Of a DNA stretch of 23,696 nucleotides, positions 126-21,311 are shown in pieces (positions within the stretch are counted from its first letter, which is position 1; every line of letters starts with the position of its first letter). The stretch covers positions 1 through 23,696 of the IMG/VR virus record IMGVR_UViG_3300005823_000014; one strand, given 5' to 3'. The notes under the pieces were generated by a model that saw only the letters and a program-made list of their open reading frames with translations, made no database searches and had not been told where the DNA came from. The stretch comes from a virus. Made by a program: the position numbers and the translations under genes.

Positions 126-3100
126 TTACATGAATACTTGCACTTCGAGAATATCAACGCCGCTGCCGGCGGTCGTGTCGGTTAGATCAAACTCTGTACC
201 ACTGTCATTCTTATAGTGAACATGCCCATCCGTCATGGCGTACAGAGCTCCAAAGCCCGTGCCGGGTTCGCCAGTGGCTGGAGCGGCTACTTCCTCAAGC
301 TCCATCCAGTTCTGCACTTGAACAATATCGGTGCCGGTGCCCTGGGTAAGAAACCCGCCAGATTCGGTCCACTCTCCGCCGCCGACTCCGGATGTTAGAT
401 CATACTCGGTGCCACCATCGTTCTTGGCATACACTTTGCCATCTGACTTGAAGTATATAGCGCCCCAGCCTGTGCCGGGCTCACCAGTGATAGGCGCGGC
501 CACTTCCTTGAGCTCGAGCCATGTACTAATCTGTGCTACTTCAAGACCGGCATCGACCCTAAACACTTCGGCAACATCACCATATACTATGAAGTCTGAG
601 TCGGTTAGGTCGCTGTTAAATAGGATGTCTCCACCCTCAACATCAATAGCAACAAAGGTTCCAGATGATGTATCGTCTTCAATCAAAATGCCAGTCGAGG
701 CGGTAATCGCACCAGCATAATAATACGGGGCGGATAGATAGAGTCCGTAGTAGTTAGCAATAATCGTATCGGTGTCGCTAACCTCAACGCGTGTCCAGTA
801 ACCATACACATTGGTGATATCGCCAGCGGCCGTAGCGCCAAGGCGGTTATAAACTCCAAAGAGATCACCCAGTGTATTGGTTGCGTCGGACCACTCGGGA
901 TTATTATAAAAGCCATACAGGTCATTAACACTGACGCCACTAACGTTCGTGGCCACGTAAACGCCCATTGGGGCACCGGAGCCGGCGTAGCCACCGCCAT
1001 TGATCTCAAGCCAAGCATTACCGCCATGACCTGTCGCTCCAATCACTACGGCGTCGGCAATCTCGGTTGGGTACAAGAATCCACCGGCGTCATCGGTCCA
1101 CTCGCTGCCAGCAGCGGCAACGGTTAGATCGTATTCTGTGCTGCTGTCGTTCGCATAATAAATCTTACCGTCAGGCTTTCCATATAGATGACCGACTTGT
1201 GCGCCAGTACTTGGGCCAGAGGGGGTATTGATTTCCGGAATGATGAATTCCTTGTATACCCTCATTCTCTCGGTAGTACCGTCCATCTCCATAATGGTGC
1301 TAGTGTCGCCCTGGAACGAATAGTCTACGTTGTCTCCTTCATAGTTGAAAGTCCACGTGCCATCGTTTCCGCTGGTTAGATTTAGCGTGCCGTTACCACC
1401 AAGACTAATTATAGACCCGCCAGCGGTTAGTTTGAGGTGCGTAGAGCCAGATGAAAGCGTCATGGTGCGATCATATGCTGTCCCTATGCCTGACGATACC
1501 TCAATACTGTCTGTAATTCCTGAACCAAATCTCCACTGAATTTTACTGTATGACGCATCGACGTCGCCCTGATCGAAGATGAGCCCACTATAGCCCTCTG
1601 GAGTTTTTACATAAATGTTGCCATACGAGAGAGAAGACCATCCAGTGTATGGATCGCCATCGTTAATAAGTAGTTGGTTGCCAAACGGAACAGTCTCGGC
1701 AGCGCCGATCACAATGGTTTCTGTAGTATTATCCGGGCGCAAGTATCCAGTTTCCTGGGTCCACTCGCCACCGGCGGATGCCGTTAGATCGTGAGATGTA
1801 CCATCTGCGCCGATCCAGTACAACAGATCGTCAGCGGCCAATGCAACCAGGAGACCATAATCAGCTCCAGTTGGCGGAGTAACACCTGAGCCATGCTGAA
1901 TGCGAGTGCGGTTTCCACCCAGGGATACCCATCCATCGTTGGAGTCTGTTTCAATGAGCCGCTTGCCAGAGCCGCCCATTACAAGAAAGTTGCCCTCCGA
2001 GTGCTCTTCGGGATTGACTACTGCAGCATATGGATCCTCGCCCGTTGACTCCATTGGGCCAATACGGAACATTTCTGTCATGCCGGCATCAGGATAAACA
2101 AAGAACTTAAACGCACTGCCAGGCTCGGCAGTGCCCCAGCCTTCAACCCATACAACGTCCATGAACGCTGCATAATTCATTGACGATGCTCCGTCTTGCA
2201 AGTACCATGCGGTTCGGTGTCCAAATCCAGCCTGCGGAGGGCTGGAGAATGGAGATGCCCATACCCAGTGTTGGAGATCTCCGCTAATATTAACACCATC
2301 GAGCTCTTCGTTGTGACCCCAGTTCCAGAATTCACCACCATTTTTGCCGGTGACCTGCATCCATGCCGCAGCGGTCCATCCAGTGGCTGCCTCGGCATCA
2401 GTGCCCATACTTGCACGACTGGTAGTACCCTGCACATAGATCCAGATTTCCCCTAAGCCACCAGAGAGACGACCGGTCAGGGTCTCGCCCGTAGTACTAA
2501 GACCATCTACCCAGCTAACAGAGTTCCAATAGTATTCTTCATCTCGGCTGCCCGAAGCCTCCAATACAAACCCACTATCGTCCAGTCGGCCCTGTCCGCT
2601 ACCAAACATAATGGATCCATCGGTATCAATATATGCACGTGTCGTGATGCCCGTGACAGACCCGTCTCTAAACTGCAACTGGCCCTCGCTCTGATCCCAC
2701 GACATATGGGCACCACTGTGATCCCCTATAAGAATATCGCCAGCGGTGAAGCTCTCAGAGTCCCAGCTTTGATCTGTGGTGAAGATCTTCATGCTGGTAC
2801 TGGATACTACGTCAATATCGGCACCAATTGTGAAGTTACCATCTGATGCGATCTCAAGGGTCCACAGCGATCCGTTGTACATGTTAAAATCGAGGTTGTC
2901 AAGCGTTAAATCTGTTCCGTCATATGTAAGTCTACCAGCGGCAGCCGATCCGATCGACACCTTGTAAATATAGTCGGTATCCTTGCCGGCCCAGAAACCA
3001 TCGTCCCCAAACTCACTGGCACCAAGGCCAATGTACGGTCTGGCTCCAGCATGCAATACTGCGTTTCCGGTGTCGGAAGTAAGACCATCGCTTGCTATGC

Positions 3101-3764
3101 TCCATCCACCAACTACACCCTTGCGAGCTATCATGTCGCCGTATTTGGTGACTGCAAACCCAGCAGCGTATGGATACACATGCCCCACCCAGAGACGGTA
3201 TTCAGTGTCATCTTCTGGGCTAGCGGGATCGTCCGGAGAACCAACGCTAGAAATTTTGACAATGTCATTGCCGCTGCCCAGCGAGAGTCCGCCGGCAGGA
3301 GAAATGCTAATGCCGGTATTGGAAATGATACCGGTAGTCTGATCTACGGTCCACCCAGCACGTGTAAGCGCGTCTGTTACATCAAACTCATCAGGAATCA
3401 TGAATGACAGATGCTCGCGCGAGACACCACCCTTCTTGACTCTAAGTCCAAAGCTGGAATTCTCAATTGTAACGTTGTCGGGCACCACGGTGGCACCAGA
3501 GGTTGACGCAAGGCCACCCGACCCAATCAGCATCACTACAGGGCGCCCATCATCCTTCCATGCAATCTGGACAGTATCACCAACATTAACGGTGTCAATA
3601 TTGCCAATCACTTCAACATGACGAACGATAGATACAGAGTCGTCCAGCCTGATGTCCGCGTGGCCACCATCAATACCATGAACAATCGCCTCAGTTGGGC
3701 GCTTATCCTTGGTTTGACCTAACACACTAATGACTGTCTCTGGAATGTTCTGATTAATTGGCAT
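126..3764 (-). CDS. Modular tail tip/fibre protein with C-terminal repeats
   Basis: This is a 1212-residue protein. Residues 1-84 look like a small beta-barrel, OB-like (Ala-Asp-Ile-Arg-Leu, then Val-Gly-Asp-Thr-Val near a Pro-Val-Val-Met strand), similar in style to the caps of tail tip/spike proteins. Around residue 216, Gly-Val-Val-Gly-Gly-Trp-Ser-Ile followed by strands about a coloured 'GARPYIGLG' segment is typical of phage tail tip and fibre proteins. Gly-Leu-Tyr/Gly-Phe-Tyr repeats lie near 950-1009. Four copies of a fibre motif ending in Asp-Leu-Thr (about 624-661, 842-881, 1085-1124, 1156-1195) occupy the C-terminal half, three of them followed by a Glu-Trp-Thr...Gly-Phe/Tyr-Leu segment. 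It probably binds the host surface at the tail tip. The frame is open back to an ATG at 3803, but 3764 is chosen because GAGGGCAGAG precedes it and the overlap with the hub gene falls to 11 bases. No catalytic domain was recognised. Confidence 0.75.
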   Translation of the reverse strand: MPINQNIPETVISVLGQTKDKRPTEAIVHGIDGGHADIRLDDSVSIVRHVEVIGNIDTVNVGDTVQIAWKDDGRPVVMLIGSGGLASTSGATVVPDNVTIENSSFGLRVKKGGVSREHLSFMIPDEFDVTDALTRAGWTVDQTTGIISNTGISISPAGGLSLGSGNDIVKISSVGSPDDPASPEDDTEYRLWVGHVYPYAAGFAVTKYGDMIARKGVVGGWSIASDGLTSDTGNAVLHAGARPYIGLGASEFGDDGFWAGKDTDYIYKVSIGSAAAGRLTYDGTDLTLDNLDFNMYNGSLWTLEIASDGNFTIGADIDVVSSTSMKIFTTDQSWDSESFTAGDILIGDHSGAHMSWDQSEGQLQFRDGSVTGITTRAYIDTDGSIMFGSGQGRLDDSGFVLEASGSRDEEYYWNSVSWVDGLSTTGETLTGRLSGGLGEIWIYVQGTTSRASMGTDAEAATGWTAAAWMQVTGKNGGEFWNWGHNEELDGVNISGDLQHWVWASPFSSPPQAGFGHRTAWYLQDGASSMNYAAFMDVVWVEGWGTAEPGSAFKFFVYPDAGMTEMFRIGPMESTGEDPYAAVVNPEEHSEGNFLVMGGSGKRLIETDSNDGWVSLGGNRTRIQHGSGVTPPTGADYGLLVALAADDLLYWIGADGTSHDLTASAGGEWTQETGYLRPDNTTETIVIGAAETVPFGNQLLINDGDPYTGWSSLSYGNIYVKTPEGYSGLIFDQGDVDASYSKIQWRFGSGITDSIEVSSGIGTAYDRTMTLSSGSTHLKLTAGGSIISLGGNGTLNLTSGNDGTWTFNYEGDNVDYSFQGDTSTIMEMDGTTERMRVYKEFIIPEINTPSGPSTGAQVGHLYGKPDGKIYYANDSSTEYDLTVAAAGSEWTDDAGGFLYPTEIADAVVIGATGHGGNAWLEINGGGYAGSGAPMGVYVATNVSGVSVNDLYGFYNNPEWSDATNTLGDLFGVYNRLGATAAGDITNVYGYWTRVEVSDTDTIIANYYGLYLSAPYYYAGAITASTGILIEDDTSSGTFVAIDVEGGDILFNSDLTDSDFIVYGDVAEVFRVDAGLEVAQISTWLELKEVAAPITGEPGTGWGAIYFKSDGKVYAKNDGGTEYDLTSGVGGGEWTESGGFLTQGTGTDIVQVQNWMELEEVAAPATGEPGTGFGALYAMTDGHVHYKNDSGTEFDLTDTTAGSGVDILEVQVFM
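129..545 (-). repeat. Tandem fibre repeat, two units plus a truncated third
   Basis: Within the fibre gene, two units with a period of 71 codons (213 bases) are visible at about 333-545 and 156-332. Each has an ...Trp-(Leu/Met)-Glu-Leu-(Lys/Glu)-Glu-Val-Ala-Ala-Pro block, then Thr-Gly-Glu-Pro-Gly-Thr-Gly, an Asp-Gly-(Lys/His)-Val block and a closing Asp-Leu-Thr. The DNA of the two units is clearly similar but not identical. A third unit starts at about 155 (Asp-Ile-Leu-Glu-Val-Gln-Val matching Asp-Ile-Val-Gln-Val-Gln) and stops after nine residues at the gene's stop codon. More diverged copies of the core motif lie at 1122-1241 and 1782-1895. Confidence 0.75.
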
Positions 3765-6700
3765 CTCTGCCCTCAACTTGCATATCAAATACCGCCGCAT
3801 CATTGCTTATGGTCATTCGATAGGCAATAGAATCTACCGATAGATCGTGATATCCCTCTACCGTTCTTGCTCTAATAATATCATTGGTTTCTACGCGTGG
3901 GTCTGCGGCGCCTATAAAGGAATGTACGTCCATGGAGGCCTGTGAATCCTCAAGAATAAAGGTACCCTCTGCGGCCGTCTCCCACTCATCATTGGCCTCG
4001 GTGGCGTTCACCAAGAAGAATAGATTGCCTTCCTCCCGGAAGCTTGTCCAATCAATTACTTCGGCTATCTCGGCCCCTTCGGCACGCACACGGTTAACTA
4101 ATGCACTGTCACTTGATGAGCGGCCAGCCTCTACCGTGAGGTCGGCGAGCTCGTACTCATAGTCTCCGATGGTGCGTACTCGCTCCATGTAAATTCCACC
4201 GGTTGATGTATCCTGATAAACAATTTTCTTTGGTCCAACTAAACCACTCAAGAGCTGGGCGCCTCTAGACCCAAGGTCCAAAACAAAGTTATCTGTACGG
4301 ATATCCAGTTCAGACCAATCGATATTGGTAATGTCATTAGTATAACCACTTGAGTACATACCCATATATTCGCCAGTCTCCAGCTCATCATCGTGGAACG
4401 TGACAATGTGACGATCATTTAGCCACACACTAAAAGAGTCTTGCTGTACAGACATAGTCAGTGTGCCTTGAGGGATCGAGTAGAAGATTGGGAAGTTTTC
4501 AATGAGCTCGGCTTCAGACTCGCTGGGTCGTAGAATCTGTAGCTCAATTGCCAAAAATGACGCGTAGTTCTTATACACCAGCTTATAGTATTGCTCAGCT
4601 GTAGCTAAATCTGCTGTATCTGCGCGTGCGATAATTCCGATCTCGGAAAGAGTGGGTGTTGACCCAGGGTGATCGAACTTCACAATACAGTGACGTCGTT
4701 CGCCAGGCATCCACTCAACCATCTCTTCAGTGGCAGTGTCCCAGTCACCAGAATAATCCTTGCCGGCGGAGAATTCTAGTACACCGGCCTTGGCGCACAA
4801 TTCCTTAGCCATATCTTCAAGGCGCATGTCCACTTCGCCTGAGTAATATCGCACTTCTTGACAAGCCACAGACAAGTCAGAGTAAATACTCACCTTGCCA
4901 GCTCCGTGTGATGTAGCGGTAGTGTCTTGTGCACCACGTAACGAGACAGTTAGCGATGGATAAATCTCAAGTATAGACCCCTCACCCAGAGAGCCGTATG
5001 GATTACGTAGAACAAAAATTCTACTTAGATCTTCATCAACCCAGCTACCATGTTCTAGATCGCCAATGTGATCCTCGATAGCATCCGGAGGTAGATAGGT
5101 TCTACTTGGCACCCACTGGTCCGGTGCTTTCCAGTCATAATCTGATATCTCAAATACCATGCCCTTGCCTGGCCCATCAGTTACAACCAGAGCCATGCCA
5201 TCGTAGTAGTCCTTAAGAACTGGGCTTGGGCCGTGTCCATCAATGTAAATTTCGTACCCAAAGCTTGGAATGTTTCCGATACCGTAAAGCTCAAACGGCA
5301 TCATTGAGTCACGACCAAAATACTGCGTTGGCGTATCCCAGTATGTATTGACGCTCCAGCCCAGCCACACACCAGTTGTGGCCGAAACCGTGTCGTCCAT
5401 TTTTACCCAGTAATAATTCGATGCGTCATCATATGAATCCCAGGCCGTGTAGTTGTTGTATCCATAGTCAAGACTTACCAGATACCAGGGAATTGTGGTG
5501 ATGATTAAGAAGAATCCCTTGCCACTCTCTCGATATTCTTTGTGCAGCCATCGTAGCTGTTCTGGAACATTACTAAAGTCGAATTCTACCCAGTCGTATT
5601 CTGTTGGCACTGTGTGGCCAGCAACTGGTGCAGAAATAGCGCTGACAATAGGAGCTCCGAATCGACCGATACCTTTAATAAAGTTGCCGCCATTATCGAA
5701 GTCATCGTTAACAATGCCGGCATACACTGGCATAGTTGGAATGCCCTCGCGCTTCATAACAACACGTACGCGATCAATTCGCTCTTCACCGTACGGGCCC
5801 TGAAAAGCCTGCGTTACTAGAAGTGCATAGTTCTTGCTACTACCTACGGCAACCTCCCCGGCATTTCCCTCAACCCAGTCAATATGGTGAATCTTTACAT
5901 CCTGCCAGTCGGGATTGTCATGCGTGGCGGCAAGATATGTATGCCCGGTGGCCCAATCCATGGCGCCAGGGTATAGACTAGCGGCAGTCTTTGCATCATA
6001 GTCAATAATCTCCGAATCTACAATGACAGTATCCGACGTCGGAAATATACTAACGTCCTCAACCGGTATCACAGTGGATGTACTGGTAAATCCGGGAGTG
6101 TTGGAATAGGACGACATATTATGAAGGGCGATCGCACCACGTCCGCGCTGATCTCTAAACCACGGTTCAGAGTAGGATCCACTGGTGTATTCAGTATCAT
6201 AGCGAAGTACAAAGAGCTCACCCCAATTGACTTCACTTGGGTATAGTGGTTCGTAATATGTAGATGCACTATGTACTGTAATATAGCCCTCGTTAAAGTG
6301 CATCATCAGCCAGTTCCATCTATTCTTATTATAGGCGTAGGCCTCAGAATAGATCTTGTGCCAGGTGCTATCCTTAACTACATAGAGCGCAACGCCCTCG
6401 TTATCCTCGTGTTCTTCAGGGCCAACCATAGCAAAAATACCGTTGTCGCCAAACTCGTTATCCGTAACGTCTTCGGACTCCTTAGTCAGACGCTCCGCAG
6501 CCTGTCCCCTACTCTCTCTATAATAATTCAGTCCGACGCCATATCGTCCATGCATCTTATGAGGAGGCAGTGCATTCTCTGGTACCCAGAACTTTGCCAC
6601 CACCTGACCGTTCCTAGACGACTTGGCAGTAGTGTAGAGAATTCCCTGCTCGTTTAGTCTATCCAAGCGAATTGGATCTGTTCCACCCTCAAGGGCATCC

Positions 6701-8193
6701 TCGTCAAAATCTTCATCGGTGCTCCACAATCCAGAAACTCTAATTACTTCAGATAGATCAGCTGGATTGGCGGCCAGTTTGGCCTGCGACCAATAGTCAT
6801 AGAAGGCATCCGAGCTCCATTGAGCAAGACGCTTGGTACCTATGCCTCTACCAACCATGCCTCGTGAATTGCCAGAATCAAAGAAGTCACGTGATAGAGC
6901 GTCTACGCCAAATACACCAAGCTGCGCCCACTCCCATACATCTGCGTCATTTTGTAAGCCAACATCGACCGTCACTCTACTATTGCGTCGAATGGCATCA
7001 TGGTCTGCAGTTGAACTTAGTTGAGCTGTAATGCCCAGTGAGCTAGATTTGCGTTGCTGTACAGATAGGTTAAGCACATCACTGGTTACATATAAATTAT
7101 CAAAGTTCTCATGCCCAACAAGATAGGTAGCCGGCGCCTTGGCGTAGTCGCCCCAGCTCAAGAACCACATGTATCCATCCGAGTACACCATCTTTCCTGG
7201 GTAGCTGGCTGGGAATTCCGTTGAATTACCAATGTACATATCGCGACCAATGGAGAAGTTGCCATCGCCATACATGTATAGTTCCATCTCGATGTTAGAA
7301 CCACGCTTAAGTCTTCCGGTGATCCAAATCTTATTGTCAATAATGCTGGCGGCGCCCAGTTTTAGATAGGACGTGTCATCAAGAATATCAATAGGCAGGA
7401 TATGTGATCCGTCACTCCAATCTCCTAGCTGGTATGCATCCAGAGCCCACAGTTGCTGCATCTTAAACATAAGCGGCCGACCTAGAGCATTGTCACTTGT
7501 AAACACATAATTAAATTCATTAAGCTGCACAGCATCGAAGCTGAACGCATGCGTCATATCGCCGTACACGCCACCTTTGAACTCATGGAAGTATGTTGTA
7601 TTACCAACGATTCGCCAGTATTGAATGATGGCATAGTTCACGCTTCTGGCTTCGGTGTATGGGAAGAACTGGACAAAGAACTCGTCCTCATCAACTGGCG
7701 CAATAGCCATGCCCTGATGCTCAGCAATACTGTACTCGCCAGGCCCACCGCCGATAGTAAAGTCATCGGTACGAATGGCATCGAGTTGCTGTGGCGTTGA
7801 TAGCGCACCGTCATATGTCATACGTACAAAGCTGTCGTCTCCACCAAAGTTCATCAATGCAATGATTTGTGCATTTCCATTTACGTCTACGACACCAGGC
7901 TTACAGTCTGACAATACATGGCCTGTAACAACCCAGTCAGGCCACGGAGTGGTGGTTGGGCTTGGGATATGCTGATAGCATAAATAGCCATCAGAGTTAC
8001 GCGCAACACGGAAGATGCCATTGCCGGCCAGGCCGACTGCATCAAACCGTAGACCATCCTCTAGGGCTGGTAGATTAGTTTCCTGTGTCGGAAACTTTTC
8101 GAATATGAGTCGCTCATCACGGAACGAAAAGCGCGTGCTAATACGCCGTACATTCTGGAGCAGATCCATGTATGCGCTAGGAATATCTCTCAT
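3754..8193 (-). CDS. Tail hub/tip protein with propeller-like and jelly-roll-like additions
   Basis: This is a 1479-residue protein encoded after the tape measure and the Dit-like gene, where siphoviruses encode the tail hub (Tal/gp27-like) protein. Residues about 368-440 (Leu-Asn-Leu-Ser-Val, Thr-Val-Asp-Val-Gly-Leu, Val-Phe-Gly-Val-Asp-Ala) and 1090-1140 with 1340-1479 (Asn-Arg-Val-Arg-Ala-Glu-Gly, Thr-Asn-Asp-Ile-Ile-Arg-Ala, ending in a beta-rich stretch) read like the pieces of a hub fold. Residues about 40-365 have repeated beta blades resembling a propeller. About 485-665 and 1150-1300 resemble concanavalin/LamG jelly rolls; the second has the typical Ser-Val-Trp-Leu-Asn-Asp followed by a Gly-Met-Tyr-Ser-Ser strand. 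About 700-735 resembles the short beta module (Thr-Val-Ile-Pro-Val...Asp-Ser-Glu-Ile-Ile-Asp-Tyr) seen in other virion proteins. The start overlaps the preceding stop as TAATG. It is much longer than simple hubs. Domain limits are by eye; no peptidase motif was found. Confidence 0.6.
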   Translation of the reverse strand: MRDIPSAYMDLLQNVRRISTRFSFRDERLIFEKFPTQETNLPALEDGLRFDAVGLAGNGIFRVARNSDGYLCYQHIPSPTTTPWPDWVVTGHVLSDCKPGVVDVNGNAQIIALMNFGGDDSFVRMTYDGALSTPQQLDAIRTDDFTIGGGPGEYSIAEHQGMAIAPVDEDEFFVQFFPYTEARSVNYAIIQYWRIVGNTTYFHEFKGGVYGDMTHAFSFDAVQLNEFNYVFTSDNALGRPLMFKMQQLWALDAYQLGDWSDGSHILPIDILDDTSYLKLGAASIIDNKIWITGRLKRGSNIEMELYMYGDGNFSIGRDMYIGNSTEFPASYPGKMVYSDGYMWFLSWGDYAKAPATYLVGHENFDNLYVTSDVLNLSVQQRKSSSLGITAQLSSTADHDAIRRNSRVTVDVGLQNDADVWEWAQLGVFGVDALSRDFFDSGNSRGMVGRGIGTKRLAQWSSDAFYDYWSQAKLAANPADLSEVIRVSGLWSTDEDFDEDALEGGTDPIRLDRLNEQGILYTTAKSSRNGQVVAKFWVPENALPPHKMHGRYGVGLNYYRESRGQAAERLTKESEDVTDNEFGDNGIFAMVGPEEHEDNEGVALYVVKDSTWHKIYSEAYAYNKNRWNWLMMHFNEGYITVHSASTYYEPLYPSEVNWGELFVLRYDTEYTSGSYSEPWFRDQRGRGAIALHNMSSYSNTPGFTSTSTVIPVEDVSIFPTSDTVIVDSEIIDYDAKTAASLYPGAMDWATGHTYLAATHDNPDWQDVKIHHIDWVEGNAGEVAVGSSKNYALLVTQAFQGPYGEERIDRVRVVMKREGIPTMPVYAGIVNDDFDNGGNFIKGIGRFGAPIVSAISAPVAGHTVPTEYDWVEFDFSNVPEQLRWLHKEYRESGKGFFLIITTIPWYLVSLDYGYNNYTAWDSYDDASNYYWVKMDDTVSATTGVWLGWSVNTYWDTPTQYFGRDSMMPFELYGIGNIPSFGYEIYIDGHGPSPVLKDYYDGMALVVTDGPGKGMVFEISDYDWKAPDQWVPSRTYLPPDAIEDHIGDLEHGSWVDEDLSRIFVLRNPYGSLGEGSILEIYPSLTVSLRGAQDTTATSHGAGKVSIYSDLSVACQEVRYYSGEVDMRLEDMAKELCAKAGVLEFSAGKDYSGDWDTATEEMVEWMPGERRHCIVKFDHPGSTPTLSEIGIIARADTADLATAEQYYKLVYKNYASFLAIELQILRPSESEAELIENFPIFYSIPQGTLTMSVQQDSFSVWLNDRHIVTFHDDELETGEYMGMYSSGYTNDITNIDWSELDIRTDNFVLDLGSRGAQLLSGLVGPKKIVYQDTSTGGIYMERVRTIGDYEYELADLTVEAGRSSSDSALVNRVRAEGAEIAEVIDWTSFREEGNLFFLVNATEANDEWETAAEGTFILEDSQASMDVHSFIGAADPRVETNDIIRARTVEGYHDLSVDSIAYRMTISNDAAVFDMQVEGRDAN

Positions 8194-8825
8194 TATGTCA
8201 CCGTCATTGCTGGAACGCTGCTTACTGTGCTTAATGTATCCATCACCATAACCTGTGGAACACCTTCCATATTGGCTGATGAAACGACATACAGCTCTTC
8301 GAGAATTACTGGTCGAGAGGTAAACATATACTCTAGCGAGCTTGCTACCACAAGCGAGTCCATCAGCGTGGTAACTGCTCCTCCCAGCGCTGCCGACTCA
8401 CTCACGGAGGAGGCAAGATTAAGGGTTGCCAATGGAACCAGGGCACCACCGCCCTGATCCACAACAAATCTTACCGTGACACGAAACTCATTGGATTCAG
8501 CGTCCCACATTGGAGTAAAGCTGGTTTCACCGTGTGGTCCAAATGCATACACAGTTGACGCCACTCCGTAATGATCGATGAGAGCAAGCGGCTCCCTCTT
8601 CTCGAGCGAGTCTCGCAGGTCATCGATATCTCCCCATCCGGTATCGTTTGGTGTGACCGGTGCTATTAATTGCCCAATCCATTCAAGAATTACACCCGGC
8701 CCATAGGTAACATCCGACGCTCCGGACAGTGTAATTCTCTCCGTAGCAGGCTTGTTACGCATAGGAGCATAGGCCAGATGTGGGGCAATGTATTTGAGTG
8801 TGTCAAAACTTACGTAGTTGTTCAT
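8193..8825 (-). CDS. Distal tail (Dit-like) protein
   Basis: This 210-residue protein lies between the tape measure and the hub, the usual place of the distal tail protein that links tube to tip. Residues 40-118 are beta-rich with an early Trp-Ile-Gly segment, a run of Asp-Asp-Leu-Arg-Asp-Ser-Leu, then Leu-Ile-Asp-His-Tyr-Gly and a closing Phe-Arg-Val-Thr-Val-Arg-Phe strand, a pattern common in phage tail proteins of this position. The remaining C-terminal part (about 125-210) is unusual, rich in Ser, Val, Ala, Leu and Thr, and may be an oligomerisation or tip-binding segment. The start is coupled to the tape measure stop by an ATGA overlap, and its own stop overlaps the hub start as TAATG. 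The assignment rests mainly on gene order and beta content; a different minor tail protein is possible. Confidence 0.5.
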   Translation of the reverse strand: MNNYVSFDTLKYIAPHLAYAPMRNKPATERITLSGASDVTYGPGVILEWIGQLIAPVTPNDTGWGDIDDLRDSLEKREPLALIDHYGVASTVYAFGPHGETSFTPMWDAESNEFRVTVRFVVDQGGGALVPLATLNLASSVSESAALGGAVTTLMDSLVVASSLEYMFTSRPVILEELYVVSSANMEGVPQVMVMDTLSTVSSVPAMTVT

Positions 8826-11800
8826 CCGCCATATCCTGACGTAGCCATTAGTGTTTGTAGATCACGAATTAGAACGCGTATACCACCCGAGTTGAGACCA
8901 CCAACAGTATTTGCCAGATCCTCAAGAGCCTTGGCCTCTAATGTGCCCATCTTATTAATGGCTATAGCCATGTCTGTCAGTGCATTCAACATTGGTATAG
9001 GATCATTCTGGGCAATAGTGGAAATGTCGCCAGAGATCTTCTCGAAAATGTCCTGTTGTACAATCAACATGTCGTCATTGTACTCTTTTTGTGCAATGGC
9101 CGACGCTGCCTGAATGCCCAGGGCCTTTTCGGCCAAGTCCATCTGAGCTACGGCATACTCGCGCTGCTTCTCCATCTGCTCGTCTTGGAGCTCATGCAGT
9201 TGCTCTGCTAGTTCAATCCGGCGCTCGAGATCTCCACGATCCATTTCGAACAGAGTCTCACGACGCTCTATATTCATATTGAACTGTTCTTCGTCAAGAG
9301 CGATGGTCTGCTCCATGTACTCACGTTTCTTTTCAAACTGTTCGTCTTCACGAGCCCACAGCTCTTCTTGTTGCTCACGTCCTCGCTCAGTTTGTTCATC
9401 TTGAACGTTCGTCATAGAGACGAATCGCTCCCTCTGAGTAACCATCTGGCGTCGTTGACGTCCGGAAGACATCCGGATATTTTCATCGAAGTCTTCCATT
9501 GTGAAGGCAGTTGACATTCCGCGCAATTGATCTTGGTACTGTCGGTTCTCCATTGTGAACTGACGAGAAAGATCCATGCCAGCTCGCTGGAATCCCATGC
9601 CCCATCGCTGGTAGTCCTGCTGTGCTCCCATGCGCCGGCCAGATAAATCTTCCTGCTGCATGGCAAACTGATTGCCAACATCCATTCTCTCAAGGGAGAA
9701 TGCGGCTGATGCCTGCTGTCCCTGCCATTGCAGAGATCGCATTCGATCCTGAATGCCCCACAGTGAGTCAGCTGATGGATTGCGCCAATCTCCACCGCCA
9801 TACTGGAATTGTCGCTGAAGAGCAATGCGCTCAAATCCAACGCCAATGCCAGCCATCTGATTACCAAATTGTTTATCTGAGAATTCTCTTTGATAGTCTG
9901 TTAGGCCAGCGTTTTGATTCTGCTCAAAGAAACTGGACATGGTTTCACTGACACCAATGCCACGAAGGCCAGCTCCCATACCAGCGCCGCCACCACCGGC
10001 GCCCTGGTACAACTGCATAAATTGGCTTAGATTATCCATACCCGGCGCACCAGCATACTGCCCGCCAGGGCCTAGACCCATTTGGCCAGCTACTTGATTA
10101 AGATTCAGCATACCTTGCTGTAAATTGCCCATCTGGGTCGGAGCTCCAGATAGATCAGTGAGCGCCATCCCCTCAAATCCAGGCAATGCGCCGGTATTGG
10201 CGGCAAAGGACATAGCGCCTAAGTCACCGCCAGCAATTCGTCCGGCAAGATCCATCTGGCCCTGTCCCATCTGTCCAAAGGCTTGCATAATTTGACCAGA
10301 TCTTACAGCGCTTGGCCCCATGTAGTCCCCCATCATGGTAGCCATTCCCATGCCGCCTTGGAACTGGTTCTGGGTCATCTGTCCGCCAGCCACGGCCATA
10401 CCGCCCTGTACACCTAATGCCAGAGCCTGCTGTTGACCCATGCCACCGGCAACAAGTCCTGATACTCCGCCAAATGCAATTTGCCCAGTCTGTTGAGTGT
10501 CAAATGCTCCCATCATGCTGCGCAATGATACTTCGCCAACCGCCTCGCGACTGATTACTTGTCTAAACTGTCCGGCCTGTCCAGCGCGTCTCTGTGCTGC
10601 CTGCATCATTTGAGATTGCTGTGCAACTCCCATGCCACCAAACATATTGGCAGCCTGGCCAAATCCCTGCTCTCCCGGCAAATATCCCACTGCTTCCGCG
10701 TACCCGCCCATCAATGCCGTGGCGCCACTGGCAGAAACACCACGTGTCTGCATAAGCTTATTCATGGTTGTAACAAGACCTAGGTTCTGACCCTCAAGAC
10801 CCTGTTCGCCAGTCATGCCAATTGCGCCAGCCAAAGTTTGTGAAATATCACCAGGTGCCACGTTAAGCTGACCAGCTATCTCAGCAACACGGCCCGCAGA
10901 CGCCATCCCAGATCCAACCCGCTTGACGCCCATCTCGCTGCCAAGCCACTGGCCATAGGCAGAGGTTTCCATGTGTTCCCCAAAACGTGCAGCATACTCA
11001 TCTTCTCGACCCAATAGGCTGGATACTCCATATCCCACACCGGCACTGATACCACCAAGAGTGCGTGCTACTGTTTGTCCCGCCGCGCCAATCATACCAA
11101 ATGTATTAACATCACGACCAGTTTGTGCGCCATACAGCTCCTGGCCAACCTGCATTGCGGTGACCGAAGCACCAGCCAAGGCAAGTGGAGCTGCGGCTCC
11201 CTTAAGAAATCCGCCTGCCCTACCGGCAAATCCTCCCATTCCTGACATAGAACTACCAAGAATTCTTGCGCCTAGTGCCGCACCGCCAAACAATCCAGCA
11301 CCAGCAGCAGCGGTGCCCATGCCGGGTGCTTGCATGGCCTGCGAGCTCAATCCCATGGCGCCGCCAACTATATTATATGCACCCTGCCCAAGCATGTATT
11401 GTCCAATGCTCTTCTGTGCCGCGTACGAGCCTGGCCCACCTTGGGGAACCTCACCGGTCATCATTGGTTCTAGGCCTGCTTGCACACCGGCGTATTCTTC
11501 CATTGCCCGCATGGCAGGAGCACCCGTATAACTCCAGAAGCGCTTGGCAATATACGCGCCATACATTAAACCACCAAGCTGACCTTCCCACATACCACGT
11601 CTGCCACCACCGCGATCGCCACCTGCGCCGCCCAGCGCACCGCCAGGTACATATCCAGATCCGCCGGCCCCAGCTACTGAGAATGCCGCGGCTCCTGTGC
11701 CTGGACCACCGCCGGACACGCCACCTGCGGCGGCTTGCCCCCATCCACCCACCTGTGCTACGGCTGCCTGTGCAGCTCCCTGTGCGGCCGGCCCAAACTC

Positions 11801-12952
11801 CCCACCGGCCATGCGCTTCAGGTCTTCGAATCCCATTCTCTGGGCGCCGCGCTGTATGTCTGCACCGCCAGCGCCACCCTGAGCCTTTTCGGTTTGATCA
11901 ACAATGGCATATGCAATCTTGCCAACCATCTGTCGTACGCGGTTGGTTACAGCGCGAGCACCAAACTCTGAACCCGCATCTCCGCCAGCAAGCTTCTTGC
12001 CTTCTTCTTCTACGGACTTAACATATTGCTGAGCTGTCTCTCCCAATGCGCGCGTGAGATTTTGAGACAGCATCTTTGGATCCATCGCAGCGCCTTGCTT
12101 CATGACGCCTTGATATGTCGCTTGTAGGGCCTGTTGCGCACCCTGAATATGTCTAGACTCAACATTAATTTGACCAGTCTCTGGATCAACGTATTTGGTT
12201 GGCATCAGGCCACGTTGTGGGTCTTCTCTAAACTGTAGGTTGCCTAGGCTTAGACTTTCTGATGGCAGGCCCAAGGCGCGAGAAATACCAGCGCCTACGC
12301 GCTGTGCTGTTGCCTCTCTACTTTCAATTGCGCCCTGGAATTCTTGAGGTGCAGCTGGCCGCAAGCCACCCAGGCGATCGGCCAGTGCTTGGTTGGGGGT
12401 TGGTACAGTGGGGGGCTGCACTAATGCCTGTCGGATTGCTTGTTCCGGAGGTGTCATTTCAGGACCAACACGACCGCCAGGAACCGCTGGAGCGCCAGTG
12501 CTTAAATCCCAGGCTAGGCCTTTAAACATGCGCGTCTGGCCTGGCGCAGGTTCAGGTAGCCCGCCCGTGTATCGTTGAAACTCGCCGGGCACCTTATAGC
12601 TCTCAGGATGCCCCGGCGTCGCCCATAAATTTGTTGCGCCAGTTGACACGTCTTGGTAATGAACGCGCGGAACCACATCTCGCCCAGAAGCAAGATGTTG
12701 CTGCGTTCGAGTGACAGCATAAGCACCGGCCATACCATAGTCTGTTGTAGCATACACGGATTGTTGGGCCGGGGTAGATCGAGGCTCTGCTGTTACACGG
12801 TCCGGAGGAACGAGTCCAGCTGACGCATAGCCAGTGTTGACTCCTTCTCTGCCCAGTAGCTCATGATGTTGAATAAGCCCCTTGCTAAATTCTTCGTCAA
12901 GGCGCTCTTCTTCCGATGTGGGACGTAGAGGATCTTTCTTAAATCCTGTCAT
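8822..12952 (-). CDS. Tape measure protein
   Basis: This 1376-residue protein acts as the ruler for tail assembly and, in other phages, enters or lines the tail lumen; by the usual 1.5 angstrom per residue rule it would set a tail of roughly 200 nm. Features fit the family: great length, position after the chaperone pair, Gly/Ala-rich hydrophobic segments (about 400-460 and 505-650) and a very Met/Gln/Gly-rich middle (about 750-1000), then a long charged coiled coil (about 1175-1310) with Glu, Arg and Gln in heptads. Residues about 1085-1160 contain repeated Phe-x-Met/Leu-Glu or Phe-x-Met-Gln blocks. The first 150 residues are not typical of tape measures and have a pattern recalling ADP-ribosyltransferase folds (see findings). 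AGGA lies six bases before the ATG. The stop overlaps the next gene (ATGA). No lytic or peptidase motif was noticed. Confidence 0.92.
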   Translation of the reverse strand: MTGFKKDPLRPTSEEERLDEEFSKGLIQHHELLGREGVNTGYASAGLVPPDRVTAEPRSTPAQQSVYATTDYGMAGAYAVTRTQQHLASGRDVVPRVHYQDVSTGATNLWATPGHPESYKVPGEFQRYTGGLPEPAPGQTRMFKGLAWDLSTGAPAVPGGRVGPEMTPPEQAIRQALVQPPTVPTPNQALADRLGGLRPAAPQEFQGAIESREATAQRVGAGISRALGLPSESLSLGNLQFREDPQRGLMPTKYVDPETGQINVESRHIQGAQQALQATYQGVMKQGAAMDPKMLSQNLTRALGETAQQYVKSVEEEGKKLAGGDAGSEFGARAVTNRVRQMVGKIAYAIVDQTEKAQGGAGGADIQRGAQRMGFEDLKRMAGGEFGPAAQGAAQAAVAQVGGWGQAAAGGVSGGGPGTGAAAFSVAGAGGSGYVPGGALGGAGGDRGGGRRGMWEGQLGGLMYGAYIAKRFWSYTGAPAMRAMEEYAGVQAGLEPMMTGEVPQGGPGSYAAQKSIGQYMLGQGAYNIVGGAMGLSSQAMQAPGMGTAAAGAGLFGGAALGARILGSSMSGMGGFAGRAGGFLKGAAAPLALAGASVTAMQVGQELYGAQTGRDVNTFGMIGAAGQTVARTLGGISAGVGYGVSSLLGREDEYAARFGEHMETSAYGQWLGSEMGVKRVGSGMASAGRVAEIAGQLNVAPGDISQTLAGAIGMTGEQGLEGQNLGLVTTMNKLMQTRGVSASGATALMGGYAEAVGYLPGEQGFGQAANMFGGMGVAQQSQMMQAAQRRAGQAGQFRQVISREAVGEVSLRSMMGAFDTQQTGQIAFGGVSGLVAGGMGQQQALALGVQGGMAVAGGQMTQNQFQGGMGMATMMGDYMGPSAVRSGQIMQAFGQMGQGQMDLAGRIAGGDLGAMSFAANTGALPGFEGMALTDLSGAPTQMGNLQQGMLNLNQVAGQMGLGPGGQYAGAPGMDNLSQFMQLYQGAGGGGAGMGAGLRGIGVSETMSSFFEQNQNAGLTDYQREFSDKQFGNQMAGIGVGFERIALQRQFQYGGGDWRNPSADSLWGIQDRMRSLQWQGQQASAAFSLERMDVGNQFAMQQEDLSGRRMGAQQDYQRWGMGFQRAGMDLSRQFTMENRQYQDQLRGMSTAFTMEDFDENIRMSSGRQRRQMVTQRERFVSMTNVQDEQTERGREQQEELWAREDEQFEKKREYMEQTIALDEEQFNMNIERRETLFEMDRGDLERRIELAEQLHELQDEQMEKQREYAVAQMDLAEKALGIQAASAIAQKEYNDDMLIVQQDIFEKISGDISTIAQNDPIPMLNALTDMAIAINKMGTLEAKALEDLANTVGGLNSGGIRVLIRDLQTLMATSGYGG

Positions 12953-13740: not shown

Positions 13741-14779
13741 TTTGAGTGTTAGTTAACGTAGCAGTGATCGGTTCGTTCTCACTATTGAGAACCGTCCCAG
13801 TCACCTGCATTACAACCTGCCGACCAGACCGCAAGGCAATAGGAGCCGCAGACCAAACGATATTATCGTCTGTTGTATCAAAGTCAAAAGTCAGTGAGTA
13901 CGGAGTATCTCCACCCGTACTTGTGCCGGCGTTCTCGGGTGAGATCAGGTCAAGCTTGATATCGCCCTCTTTGAATACTTCTGCCGTCCATGCTGTTGCA
14001 GCACCGGCGGGATCATACATGATCTTCTCATATAGGTCAACATCATCTATCTTAAGATTCAAGGTGATGCTGGCTGATCTCTGGTTGATTGCGAAATCAT
14101 CCGGAGAATATGAGCCAACAATGAACTGTTCGTCCAGTGGGATCTGCAGACCGAATGCAATTGCGCCACTCAGTACTTTAGCAGCCGTTCCCGTTGGTAG
14201 TTCAATGTCAGTTACTGGAGACAGGAACTGTGGTCCTGCGTCAAGATACGTTGGCACGGCCCAGGCTGTTACCCAGCCTGTGCTGTCGATGTTTGGAGTT
14301 GGGAGGCCACCTACAAAAGTAGCTGCTCCTTCAACAAACCGCGCGCCTGTAAACGAGAGCACAAGTCCCGCCACTCGGCAGTCTTGGAGCTGTTCGGCCC
14401 AAATTCCACCAGGTGCTGATCTTACTGTCCAGTACGGAGCACTGAATTGATCCGTTGGCAGGGTGAATACATGTGAGTATGATCCGTCAGAGTTGTCAGC
14501 TGGGCTGGCAACCTCTCCGATCGCGCCAAGAAGTAGTTTCCCAAGATTGGTAGGACGCGGGATGATATCCATCGTTCCGCCACTAGTGATACCGACCTTT
14601 ACTACATCGCGGAGCATAGCCCCGCCACCGATTTCCTGGTCAAGCGGCAGGAACATGTTGTTCGGTGCCACCCCACCAGCTCGGAAGAGGAAGTAGGAAA
14701 AGTCAGCGTCAGTAGAGTTTGGGCTACCCTTAGCTGTCTGCTTGGCGATACCTAGATATGATCGTTCGGCAGCTGTCAT
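13727..14779 (-). CDS. Major tail tube protein
   Basis: This 350-residue protein comes immediately before the tail chaperone, where siphoviruses encode the tube subunit. The N terminus (Tyr-Leu-Gly-Ile-Ala-Lys-Gln-Thr-Ala-Lys-Gly-Ser-Pro, residues 8-20) matches the opening of the phage tail tube family in which 'GIAxExxxGT' leads into the first strand. The body is rich in beta strands with many Thr, Gly and Ile/Val alternations, including an Asp-Ile-Ile-Pro-Arg-Pro-Thr-Asn segment near 71-78 and a Ser-Ala-Ser-Ile-Thr-Leu-Asn-Leu-Lys strand near 235-243. It is larger than the smallest tube proteins, suggesting an extra decoration domain. The start overlaps the stop of the upstream gene as ATGA, so the two are co-translated. 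It should be abundant in the virion. Confidence comes from position plus fold pattern. Confidence 0.75.
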   Translation of the reverse strand: MTAAERSYLGIAKQTAKGSPNSTDADFSYFLFRAGGVAPNNMFLPLDQEIGGGAMLRDVVKVGITSGGTMDIIPRPTNLGKLLLGAIGEVASPADNSDGSYSHVFTLPTDQFSAPYWTVRSAPGGIWAEQLQDCRVAGLVLSFTGARFVEGAATFVGGLPTPNIDSTGWVTAWAVPTYLDAGPQFLSPVTDIELPTGTAAKVLSGAIAFGLQIPLDEQFIVGSYSPDDFAINQRSASITLNLKIDDVDLYEKIMYDPAGAATAWTAEVFKEGDIKLDLISPENAGTSTGGDTPYSLTFDFDTTDDNIVWSAAPIALRSGRQVVMQVTGTVLNSENEPITATLTNTQSTQY

Positions 14780-15309
14780 GTGTAAACCCCTGTTCTTGTT
14801 GTGTACACATCAAAATAAATCTTGATGTGAAAGTCATATGAGTCAGGAGGGCCACCCCCCTGAAGCATATCGGATTTGAGTGATGTGGCCATTGGTCCTC
14901 GACTGACATATTCGTCATCGGTGGCAATGCCTGTAAAAAGCTCCTTAAGAAGTGCCAGCTCTGCCCTGTCTCTCACAATAGCTGCGATTTCCATTGCAGC
15001 AGCTTGCCCTTCTCTAGTGTTCTCTAGCAGACATCGGATCTTGATTGTGAACCGGCGTACCCATGTTACGGTGCCGCCAATTTCCACAATCGCAACCACG
15101 TCCCGCCATTGCCCATCGATGTTTTCTGGGTCGTTGTGGTGAACCTCTACTGAGATTCGAGCAACGTCGGGATCTGGCTCGCCTTGCAGCGGGCCGACCT
15201 TGACAACACCGGCCTGAGCTGTGTCGCTATCATCAATGTTGGTGATGAGAGCAGCCTCCAGCTGATCGCGGGTGTATGTTATGATCTCGTTGACAATGCC
15301 CTCAGTCAT
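14776..15309 (-). CDS. Tail completion/terminator-like neck protein
   Basis: This 177-residue protein lies between the head-tail adaptor and the tube gene. In siphoviruses that location normally carries the proteins closing the head and ending the tube. Residues 1-25 form a likely helix (Glu-Ile-Ile-Thr-Tyr-Thr-Arg-Asp-Gln-Leu-Glu), followed by strands (Arg-Ile-Ser-Val-Glu-Val-His-His; Val-Ala-Ile-Val-Glu-Ile; Phe-Thr-Ile-Lys-Ile-Arg-Cys), a helix around 98-122 (Arg-Glu-Gly-Gln-Ala-Ala-Ala-Met-Glu-Ile-Ala-Ala-Ile-Val-Arg) and a closing Tyr-Asp-Phe-His-Ile-Lys-Ile-Tyr-Phe-Asp-Val strand. This alpha/beta order resembles tail terminator (gpU-like) or minor tail (gpZ-like) proteins. It starts as TAATG with the adaptor stop, with GGAAGGA upstream, and ends as ATGA with the tube gene. 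I cannot distinguish head closure from tail terminator. Confidence 0.5.
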   Translation of the reverse strand: MTEGIVNEIITYTRDQLEAALITNIDDSDTAQAGVVKVGPLQGEPDPDVARISVEVHHNDPENIDGQWRDVVAIVEIGGTVTWVRRFTIKIRCLLENTREGQAAAMEIAAIVRDRAELALLKELFTGIATDDEYVSRGPMATSLKSDMLQGGGPPDSYDFHIKIYFDVYTTRTGVYT

Positions 15310-15974
15310 TAGCGCATCCTTCCAGGCCGGCTCAATCGAACCGCTCCACCTTCAATCCGTTCGGCTATTTTCATGTAATATTCATCCATGATACTTGCAA
15401 CCTCTGGAGATAGTGGGTTATCTTCTCGCGTATTGCCGGAAGACACCTGTGTTTTGAAGCGATCGAGAGCGGACTGTCGAGAGCGCATTTGGCCATAGAC
15501 CTTTGCAGCAACGTAGAGTCGCGGCAGCTCGTGGTCAACGTCTGGTATGGTAACGTCACTAGTATCGTCGTTGACATTGTCTGGTATCGTATGCATTGCT
15601 GCATACGTCATCAGAACTGCCTCGGCATCATAGGGGGCAACGTCTAGCATTAGGCTGCCCCCTAGCAGATACCAATAAAAAGGTCTACCTGATTGGGAGG
15701 GATATCGCACGCCGGGGCGCGGCATACGTTCTTCCAGAAAGCGGTTCTCCGGCACTTCAATAAAGACAACGTTGATGAAGTCAGCTGGAAGCGTATAGGG
15801 ACCAGTGCCAGTTCCTGAGAGTTCAACTCTATCGGGCACTAAAGGAAACCACAGTGAGTAGTCCCTTACAGCGTCCGTCCAGAACACGTACAGGTCATTA
15901 TCGGTCCATCTGGGAGTTGCACCAGTATCTCTAAGATATGTGCGAAGATCAGCTTTCGTTTCACCCCAGTTCAT
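15309..15974 (-). CDS. Head-tail adaptor/connector protein
   Basis: This 221-residue protein directly follows the capsid gene. The N-terminal pattern, Trp...Thr-Lys-Ala-Asp-Leu-Arg-Thr-Tyr-Leu-Arg-Asp-Thr-Gly followed by Arg-Trp-Thr-Asp-Asn-Asp-Leu and a helix Trp-Thr-Asp-Ala-Val-Arg-Asp-Tyr-Ser, is characteristic of phage adaptor proteins (gp6/gp15-like) that bind below the portal and prepare it for tail joining. A beta-rich middle (Tyr-Thr-Leu-Pro-Ala-Asp-Phe-Ile-Asn-Val-Val-Phe-Ile-Glu-Val) and a C-terminal helical part (about 150-210, with Tyr-Tyr-Met-Lys-Ile-Ala-Glu-Arg-Ile) complete it. The ribosome binding site CGGAGG lies seven to eight bases from the start, within the 12-base gap after the capsid gene. 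Its end overlaps the next gene (TAATG). A role at the head-tail interface is probable; the exact adaptor type is uncertain. Confidence 0.7.
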   Translation of the reverse strand: MNWGETKADLRTYLRDTGATPRWTDNDLYVFWTDAVRDYSLWFPLVPDRVELSGTGTGPYTLPADFINVVFIEVPENRFLEERMPRPGVRYPSQSGRPFYWYLLGGSLMLDVAPYDAEAVLMTYAAMHTIPDNVNDDTSDVTIPDVDHELPRLYVAAKVYGQMRSRQSALDRFKTQVSSGNTREDNPLSPEVASIMDEYYMKIAERIEGGAVRLSRPGRMR

Positions 15975-18243: not shown

Positions 18244-19029
18244 TTAGGCCGTGTAGATGGAGTCACGCCAAATGGCGCGCTTCTGGCCACCGTCATTAAA
18301 GAACGGTATAGCCTCTACTTGAATAAGTGTACCATAAATTGTCGCAAGTACAAGGCCTTGTTGCCAATTTGGACTATTTACGTACGATGGATCAGTATCA
18401 CACAAACAGAAGCATTCGAAGGCCCTGGCCACGCCATTGCGCGTGTTGGCATAGTGCACTCCACCTCTGTGGGTATGGCCGGTGAAGAGAGTTGGAACTT
18501 GGTAAAACTCTTTCTCCATCTCTCCACGAGCAGTGTAGGCACTGTGCTTTCGTATCACAGTACCATGTTTGATAACCAACGGGCCAATCTCTAGCTCCGA
18601 TTGTCCATAGTTTTCGCCGATGACTCTCTCCTCGCACTCAATATTCAGATAGCGGAATCCAAGAAGATTGTTTAGGCTTAATACCTCGAGCCCAGCCATT
18701 TCTGGATGGCGCCAAATGTAACGACGCAATCTATCTTCGTGATTGCCCGGAATAAAGAATCTTCGGGCGTCGGGAGCTGCAGAGATCCAATCTCGCATCC
18801 CGCTTCTCCAAGAGTCAATCTCCGTCTGGAGATTAAAGGCACGCTTGGGATCTTTGTCAAACTTGCTGATAGAGTAAAAGTCTATAGCATCCGAACCACA
18901 AACCAGTAGATCAGGCGAAAAGTCCCGCGTGATCTGTAGCGCTATGTGACGTGCTGCTTCGTCCTGAAATGGATAGTGCTCGTCAGTTGGAAACGCTACT
19001 TTGTAACCCTCTGTGGGGTTGATAATCAT
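18244..19029 (-). CDS. Calcineurin-like metallophosphoesterase
   Basis: This 261-residue protein has the complete set of metal-ligand motifs of the calcineurin-like phosphoesterase family: Asp16-x-His18 (Thr-Asp-Glu-His), Asp47-x-x-Asp50 in Gly-Ser-Asp-Ala-Ile-Asp (the classic form is Gly-Asp-x-x-Asp, here with one Ser between), Gly95-Asn96-His97-Glu98-Asp99, Lys154-His155-Gly156 and Gly184-His185-Thr186-His187. These would hold two metal ions and cleave phosphoesters; the substrate cannot be read from the sequence. It starts inside the portal stop (ATGA overlap) and is followed at once by the 66-residue head protein, so it is co-expressed with head genes. A DNA or nucleotide role, or removal of a phosphate signal, is possible. 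No signal peptide is seen, so it should act in the cytoplasm. The phosphoesterase identity is strong; why it is encoded between portal and scaffold is not known. Confidence 0.88.
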   Translation of the reverse strand: MIINPTEGYKVAFPTDEHYPFQDEAARHIALQITRDFSPDLLVCGSDAIDFYSISKFDKDPKRAFNLQTEIDSWRSGMRDWISAAPDARRFFIPGNHEDRLRRYIWRHPEMAGLEVLSLNNLLGFRYLNIECEERVIGENYGQSELEIGPLVIKHGTVIRKHSAYTARGEMEKEFYQVPTLFTGHTHRGGVHYANTRNGVARAFECFCLCDTDPSYVNSPNWQQGLVLATIYGTLIQVEAIPFFNDGGQKRAIWRDSIYTA

Positions 19030-21120: not shown

Positions 21121-21311
21121 TATGCCTTACCTCCGTTGTTTGCGATTTGATCGTGTCCGCACTTGGGACACTTTGTAACGCCTTCCTTGATCATACGGGC
21201 GCATTGGATGCATCCCACGTAAATTGTCTTTGACACGGCGTCTGCCAAAGAAGAGACGTAGTAAATTTTTCCATCTGCGTACATTCGAATTTTCCCCACC
21301 TGGTTCTCCAT
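21120..21311 (-). CDS. Zinc-ribbon miniprotein
   Basis: This 63-residue protein has two Cys-x-x-Cys pairs at 34/37 (Cys-Ile-Gln-Cys) and 48/51 (Cys-Pro-Lys-Cys-Gly), ten residues apart, which fits a single zinc ribbon. The N-terminal part (Val-Gly-Lys-Ile-Arg-Met-Tyr-Ala-Asp-Gly-Lys) is a likely small beta hairpin. Both ends are coupled to neighbours by one-base TAATG overlaps, which supports it as real despite its size. It may bind nucleic acid or another protein. A weak Shine-Dalgarno suggests that it relies on translation of the FmdB-like gene upstream. Confidence 0.72.
   Translation of the reverse strand: MENQVGKIRMYADGKIYYVSSLADAVSKTIYVGCIQCARMIKEGVTKCPKCGHDQIANNGGKA

Follow-up and report, generated by a model that had tools for sequence, protein, structure and literature searches.

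We examined a viral DNA record of 23,696 bases (IMGVR_UViG_3300005823_000014; hereafter the window) and found that the product of its open reading frame (ORF) at 3754-8193 appears, in structure models, to be a tail hub of the gp27/Mu gp44 type (Tal/BHP), with a core that is complete but split by inserts. The models add a six-bladed beta-propeller in front of this core and a concanavalin-type jelly roll within it, and a second jelly roll is likely. That these additions form a constitutive crown making low-specificity contact with glycans, while fibres mainly choose the host, is a reading to which we give an even chance. The carrier is probably an uncultivated phage with a non-contractile tail.

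Two AlphaFold2 models were built from alignments of 16-17 sequences and searched for known folds by Foldseek and VIA alignment. Model A covers residues 1-490 (mean predicted local distance difference test score, pLDDT, 76.1; predicted template modelling score, pTM, 0.78) and model B residues 346-1479 (mean pLDDT 76.2, pTM 0.59). Loci carrying relatives are labelled with L-numbers (L002, L037 and so on). The parts of the hub, from the N-terminus and with lengths in amino acids (aa), are as follows.

3754-8193, minus strand: the tail hub gene, a single intact ORF of 1479 aa with a hub fold, between the gene in the Dit position and a fibre-like gene.
8113-8193, minus strand: residues 1-27, N-terminal helix/strand, with strand 18-25 in model A.
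7111-8109, minus strand: residues 29-361, predicted six-bladed beta-propeller (model A, pLDDT 76, pTM 0.78).
6844-7098, minus strand: residues 366-450, hub subdomain 1; the alignments of Mu gp44 and many other hubs begin at model residue 21, window residue 366.
6742-6843, minus strand: residues 451-484, the most conserved stretch, around DYWSQ, ahead of every other measured segment in mean identity.
6088-6777, minus strand: residues 473-702, jelly roll 1 (LG1), concanavalin/CBM66-like by the fold matches of model B.
4870-6087, minus strand: residues 703-1108, a middle block apparently nested in LG1 and essentially missing from the 1056-aa homologue L037.
5269-5973, minus strand: residues 741-975, a dispensable segment of the middle block, reduced in 4/16 relatives.
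4840-4866, minus strand: residues 1110-1118, the probable closing strand of LG1 (strand 765-773 of the model); CBM66-type matches end at model residues 773-778, window 1118-1123.
4759-4869, minus strand: residues 1109-1145, a piece of hub subdomain 2 with the helix DMAKELCAKAG (780-790 of model B), inside the span of the hub alignments.
4294-4758, minus strand: residues 1146-1300, probable jelly roll 2 (LG2), 11 strands in model B.
3757-4293, minus strand: residues 1301-1479, hub subdomains 3 and 4; hub alignments finish at model residues 1131-1134, window 1476-1479.

Model B aligned with Mu gp44 (1wru) at Z 19.3 (294/325 residues, root-mean-square deviation (rmsd) 3.9) over model residues 21-1134, that is residues 366-1479 of the protein, and the Foldseek hub match had an E of 2.2e-8. 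Other hubs aligned as well (MuSo2, Z 19.2; T4 gp27, Z 16.3; 80alpha Tal, Z 15.4), the alignments running from residue 351 or 366 to 1477 or 1479, with VgrG proteins together with T4 gp27 and 80alpha Tal at Z of about 15-18. Models without a clear Foldseek match typically reach a best Z of 7-8; at Z 18-21 the matches for hub, propeller and CBM66 far exceed this yardstick, and we therefore take them to be beyond chance. An earlier reading of the sequence alone (the sequence-only reading) had placed hub strands at 368-440, 1090-1140 and 1340-1479; the hub in model B bears this out, with its pieces at 366-450, about 1109-1145 and 1301-1479. Prediction in pieces followed by fold search, as that reading had proposed, returned separate matches for propeller, hub core and LG1. 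Sequence searches of the hub against Pfam, PHROGs and PDB gave nothing usable (the best PHROG match, at E 0.0012, was to an unnamed family and came from 2/14 members), and the lack of a sequence-family or PDB sequence match would suit a protein that is no hub at all, being instead one unrelated enzyme or one continuous fold. The full-length hub match at Z 19 and the gene order contradict that idea, and we consider it scarcely credible.

The published Tal scheme has four subdomains, of which 1 and 4 are beta and 2 and 3 combine helix and sheet (as set out in section 3.2.1 of PMC9437275). Helices 1125-1135 and 1311-1319 of the protein, as modelled, would mark subdomains 2 and 3, and with this placement LG1 would separate subdomain 1 from 2, and LG2 would separate 2 from 3. 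At the N-terminus, the hub may already begin with strand 18-25, in which case the propeller too would be an insertion. The arginines of this region are widely shared among the 17 aligned sequences (R2 in 14/17, R16 in 12/17, R21 in 11/17), and S469 and Q470, in the DYWSQ stretch, are invariant (17/17).

Model A shows grouped short strands over residues 32-354, followed by hub strands. By VIA alignment its propeller matched the T. cruzi trans-sialidase (Z 21.2, 298 residues, rmsd 3.7) and the AAL fucose lectin 1ofz_A (Z 20.3, 265/312 residues, rmsd 3.4); more generally, sialidases reached a Z of about 21 and AAL/FleA fucose lectins about 20, with 260-300 residues aligned and a gap of <1 Z. PLL lectins head the Foldseek list (E 1e-6), which also holds the phi11 host-recognition protein 5efv. 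The matches cover about residues 29-361, close to the 40-365 that the sequence-only reading had assigned to a propeller. Sialidases take the top rows by Z, as a sialidase-like depolymerase glycosidase cutting host surface glycans would lead one to expect; fucose lectins lie within 1 Z of them, and the marks of sialidases, Asp boxes and a RIP motif, are largely lacking. The Asp-box pattern was missing in 16/17 propellers (the single match being in L037), and a narrow [FY]RIP pattern in 17/17.

LG1 matched the CBM66 module 4b1m_C at Z 18.0 (158/161 residues, rmsd 2.3), residues 690-878 of Douge gp20 at Z 17.1 and residues 114-310 of 8zdo_a at Z 15.8, in addition to galactocerebrosidase and legume lectins (the latter at Z ~15). 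Judged by residue numbering, the Douge structures are the C-terminal domain (CTD) of CFP and BppU-CBM. The CBM66, galactocerebrosidase, legume lectin and Douge matches span from about 466-473 to 1118-1123, so that the last strand of LG1 is most simply 1110-1118 and the block 703-1108 would be nested within it, a placement read from the first and last matched residues only. The first jelly roll claimed at 485-665 is thus recovered, with a body of 473 to ~702 and a last strand beyond the nested block. GH16 enzymes also have a concanavalin-like fold and are marked by an ExDxxE-type catalytic motif. The kappa-carrageenase 5ocq does appear in the Foldseek list, which leaves the matched part unspecified, and the motif was missing in 13/14 LG1 sequences tested (a set without L042 and L044), the match in L031 being an acidic run. 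On the absence of these motifs we set aside both enzyme readings: a glycosidase propeller is very improbable, and an LG1 that is a GH16-type glucanase instead of a binding module still more so, to the point of near dismissal.

Within the middle block, the equivalent of residues 741-975 is 1 residue long in L037, 28 in L042, 31 in L044 and 17 in L056; L036 has 204 residues there, yet falls below that segment's profile at E 0.05. The same L036 frame holds at residues 1047-1081, before LG2, a second copy of the small beta motif of residues 703-745, and this motif also occurs in three further genomes (L075-L077), in frames of 806-832 aa of which one matches Phage-tail_3. The LG2 block has a pLDDT of 53-88, mostly 75-88, and its likeness to LG1 by hhalign is weak (E 3.4e-4, probability 38%; middle-block control, E 0.39). 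Its Pfam hints are sub-threshold (3keto-disac_hyd, 0.018 in 1/16; Gal-bind_lectin, 0.066 in 2/16), with unrelated families at similar E, and its best PDB profile match has an E of 0.83. The modelled strands and the profile likeness favour the second jelly roll that had been claimed at 1150-1300, none of the fold matches listed is confined to it, and on balance residues 1146-1300 are likely a second jelly roll.

A single-sequence search yielded one close relative, L002, whose hub is 76% identical to that of the window. Further relatives came from records reached via tail-tube and TerL proteins and then from viral contigs and bacterial genomes searched with profiles. The family has 15 complete members, the window among them, and two more that contig ends cut short (L040, truncated at the 3' end, and L041, which stops after the equivalent of residue ~484); left out of the counts were L028/L035 (P0009; partial, with the same sequence as L032 there), L030 (same record as L002) and L043 (same ORF coordinates as L042). 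Two members sit in bacterial metagenome-assembled genomes (MAGs) titled Anaerolineae and Deltaproteobacteria. Seed genomes included, 7/346 sampled genomes of the class of the Anaerolineae MAG and 4/345 of the phylum of the Deltaproteobacteria MAG had matches; the short contigs L063 and L065 were not examined, and L068-L070 match the small 703-745 motif only. The class sample also gave four distant hubs (L071-L074; 1282-1576 aa). One of them (L072) lies in a 1.5-Mb contig and another in a 278-kb contig, which suggests integrated copies, for L072 a prophage or tail-like element.

Profiles of the propeller matched 17/17 family members, and those of LG1 and LG2 16/16 members reaching that far; members match by construction, except L042 and L044 for LG1, which the profile recovered at E ~1e-46. 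In the distant hubs, subdomains 3-4 were matched in 4/4 and the propeller in 3/4, where L071 and L074 had been fetched for propeller-side matches and L072 is the only unselected propeller case. L073 carries a Pfam match to the concanavalin-like GH43_C2 (E 6.4e-4), below the family's cut-off. Searching 50,697 phage records by tblastn with six hubs gave zero matches (E limits: window hub 1e-3; L045 and L037 1e-2; L056, L073 and L071 1), and the window TerL had none at E 1e-3. As a positive control, the lysozyme-like ORF of L056 matched 77 phage records, so the search works; a more distant relative could still escape it.

Conservation was compared among 95 distant pairs (15-30% identity; 68 pairs for the middle block). 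Mean identity was 0.388 for residues 451-484, 0.313 for blades 4-6, 0.286 for LG1, 0.279 for the subdomain 2 piece, 0.266 for subdomains 3-4, 0.261 for the whole propeller, 0.249 for residues 1-27, 0.231 for the middle block, 0.214 for blades 1-3, 0.205 for LG2 and 0.197 for the subdomain 1 piece. Blades 4-6 and LG1 are at least as conserved as subdomains 3-4, unlike a typical host-range module. Closer pairs run counter to this argument in part. Identities of hub core, propeller, LG1 and LG2 were 0.84, 0.73, 0.78 and 0.70 for the window and L002, and 0.83, 0.75, 0.76 and 0.74 for L042 and L044, the hub core leading in both of these closest pairs; it does not lead in the next two (L033-L034, 0.53, 0.48, 0.58 and 0.60; L032-L045, 0.44, 0.61, 0.59 and 0.44). 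A selection test by the ratio of nonsynonymous to synonymous change (dN/dS) yielded nothing, synonymous sites being saturated in most of 20 comparisons.

The sequence-only reading held that the hub itself takes the sugar-binding role and spares the phage separate fibres. The fibres are not spared: a fibre-like gene (126-3803) follows the hub directly, and relatives carry further fibre-type genes. Between the window and L002 this next gene is 65.7% identical over its first 408 columns and then rearranged, with segments shuffled (1225 vs 2225 aa), and between L033 and L034 it is likewise rearranged after its first part (817 vs 1678 aa). It is collinear in L032 and L045 (43.4% over 489 columns). 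In L042 and L044 the first two genes after the hub are preserved in full (71.6% and 78.6%), and the third, which has a tail-spike match in the L042 copy, aligns over the first ~265/412 residues. Separate fibres exist, then, some of them variable, and the lectin-like domains belong to the hub as a constant feature; the argument from variable fibres is mixed.

We propose that three hub copies would close the tube beneath a Dit-like ring, with three propellers and up to six jelly rolls forming a permanent crown round it. This crown would make broad, low-specificity contacts with glycans of the host envelope and so orient the tail tip, probably also stiffening the baseplate; neighbouring fibres would mainly select the host, and opening of the hub would then release the tape measure and the DNA. 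Sugar binding by the propeller and LG1 is suggested by analogy of fold: LG1 shares the fold of glycan-binding Douge domains and the propeller lies near fucose lectins and sialidases, both of which we counted for a glycan-touching crown. The architecture given by the sequence-only reading is upheld; its idea of the hub as a sugar-binding device is only partly supported, by these fold likenesses. Several findings weigh against the crown as proposed. Conservation is high in structural-looking stretches (blades 4-6, LG1 and DYWSQ), which suits packing as well as glycan binding. The next gene is collinear in L031 and L045 (58.5% over 581 columns), where the hubs share 39%. LG2 is without a fold match confined to itself among the matches listed, and the LG1 and LG2 profiles matched 0/4 distant hubs at E <= 0.05. 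The model alignments are shallow (16-17 sequences), five versions of model B span pLDDT 66.9-76.2, and whole-query Foldseek TM-scores are low (0.13 for the top hub match, 0.34 for the top propeller match); with the pTM of 0.59, these scores mean that the models do not fix the relative arrangement of the domains.

The same anatomy could instead be structural and sugar-free, the propeller and jelly rolls packing on the Dit-like ring, neighbouring hubs and fibre base and replacing the galectin-like arms of a fuller Dit, and we regard this as a serious contender at somewhat less than an even chance. The distant-pair values speak for it, blades 4-6 and LG1 equalling or exceeding subdomains 3-4 and exceeding the subdomain 1 piece; so does the protein in the Dit position, which at ~125 aa in most aligned relatives would be short for a belt plus a galectin domain, and so does the crAss001 muzzle, whose seven-bladed propeller belongs to the tube end (as passages of PMC10172136 describe). 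The galectin domain of Dit can be absent, for example in lambda (stated in part of PMC9437275). On the other side, the nearest folds listed for the propeller and LG1 belong mainly to glycosidases or to proteins that bind sugars, the Douge domains with the LG1 fold bind glycans (according to passages of PMC13033339), and propeller, LG1 and LG2 all trail the hub core in conservation in the two closest pairs. The mixed fibre comparison takes some weight from the glycan-touching crown and adds it to the structural one. A crown that touches glycans still seems to us slightly likelier than a purely structural one, with the balance close to even. A bolder version, which we think unlikely, is that the hub has taken over the lectin-type arms of the Dit ring, leaving a galectin-free Dit-like protein of ~125 aa: two jelly rolls per chain would make a pseudo-sixfold ring of arms, the three propellers would be a second glycan-reading layer, and the tube opener would sense the envelope directly.

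All genes nameable in the window lie on the minus strand, and the plus-strand reading of 3754-8193 has many stops. Besides the hub, those named are TerL (Terminase_6N), an SPP1-type portal, a Metallophos ORF, a capsid protein, an SU10-type adaptor and a Phage_tube_2 tail tube; the tape-measure-like, Dit-position, hub and fibre-like genes, placed by position, come after the tail tube gene. The hub's neighbours are as follows.

8822-12952, minus strand: tape-measure-like protein, 1376 aa, by length, composition and position.
8193-8825, minus strand: small gene in the Dit position, 210 aa; an alignable gene lies directly upstream of the hub in relatives.
126-3803, minus strand: tail tip or fibre-like gene, 1225 aa, with collinearity to L002 lost after about residue 412.

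The order tape measure, small gene, hub holds in the window, as it does in those relatives that show both of the genes upstream. The tape-measure-like protein is 52.8% identical to its L002 counterpart over 1198 columns and has no family match below E 0.02. Profile searches of the Dit-position protein gave no useful match, and the Dit label denotes position only; in its alignment the L045 row, in a wrong frame, was disregarded (the likely L045 ORF is 9589-9999). In L033 (7086-9560) an 824-aa ORF appears to have the Dit-position protein at its N-terminus, followed by a long extension. The fibre-like protein is 34.9% identical over 278 columns to the L045 gene, which matches Phage_Tail_Tip, and by eye it has recurring DGKVYxKNDxGTEYDLT-type units near its C-terminus. 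One small gene downstream of the hub of L046 lies a glycosyltransferase and methyltransferase ORF (14310-15572), followed by a collagen-repeat fibre. Elsewhere in the window, all on the minus strand, are a calcineurin-like phosphoesterase ORF between the portal and capsid genes, a location that seems unusual (18244-19029; Metallophos E 7.4e-5), a 105-aa ORF with an HExxH motif and a sub-threshold match to YgjP-like metallopeptidases (20803-21120; E 0.0026) and a zinc-ribbon protein between terminase and portal (21311-21601; Zn_ribbon_8 E 1.5e-9).

This uncultivated phage family adds a hub architecture in which a gp27 core bears a propeller and jelly rolls. Should the crown bind glycans, sugar sensing would sit on the part that opens for DNA release, and a link between adsorption and triggering would become testable; if it is structural, the case cautions against naming every lectin-like phage domain a receptor-binding protein.

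Among known systems, Mu gp44 (1wru), MuSo2 (3cdd), T4 gp27 (1k28) and 80alpha Tal (6v8i) have the whole hub fold in the same order as the window hub. Those chains have 325-387 residues, whereas the ~290 hub residues aligned here stretch over 1114, with the propeller in front. A literature search by title, abstract opening and passage found no gp27-type hub with a built-in propeller. Propellers themselves occur in fucose and PLL lectins, which bind sugars, in the phi11 receptor-binding protein, and at the tail end in the crAss muzzle and T7 nozzle, to which the crAss001 muzzle is similar (in the same passages of PMC10172136); as far as seen, none of these is fused to a gp27-type hub. The Douge CFP CTD (689-878) and BppU-CBM (116-311) bind mycobacterial lipoarabinomannan/arabinomannan (LAM/AM) and alpha-glucan in assays; gp23 BppU-CBM and gp20 CTD have the LG1 fold, but are placed on the upper baseplate protein and fibre tip, not the hub (passages of PMC13033339). 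The RcGTA hub, like that of the window, has an internal domain, there named oligosaccharide-binding; it resembles one in the T4 hub itself, and no propeller or jelly roll is among the RcGTA hub domains given in the passages of PMC7296036. The best predicted-structure matches to model B, which lacks the propeller, were the minor tail protein A0A8F2IWA1 of Streptomyces phage KimJongPhill and A0A5Q2W5L8, matching hub plus jelly rolls at E 1.3e-20 and 6e-19.

Closest in plan are the 'evolved' Tals, gp27-like hubs with modules inserted in or between subdomains: in streptococcal phages two carbohydrate-binding modules in the gp27-like domain (described in part of PMC7291167), and in Brussowviruses, by an AlphaFold2 study, two lysin modules between subdomains 3 and 4 (described in part of PMC9437275). 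The window hub likewise has an inserted module, LG1 lying inside the hub span 366-1479. Its inserts differ from those of Brussowvirus as presented there, being by our own assignment between subdomains 1 and 2 and between 2 and 3, jelly rolls in kind, and accompanied by a propeller. Decorated hubs are already known; a gp27 core bearing a propeller and jelly rolls is a new addition that extends them, and not a wholly new machine.

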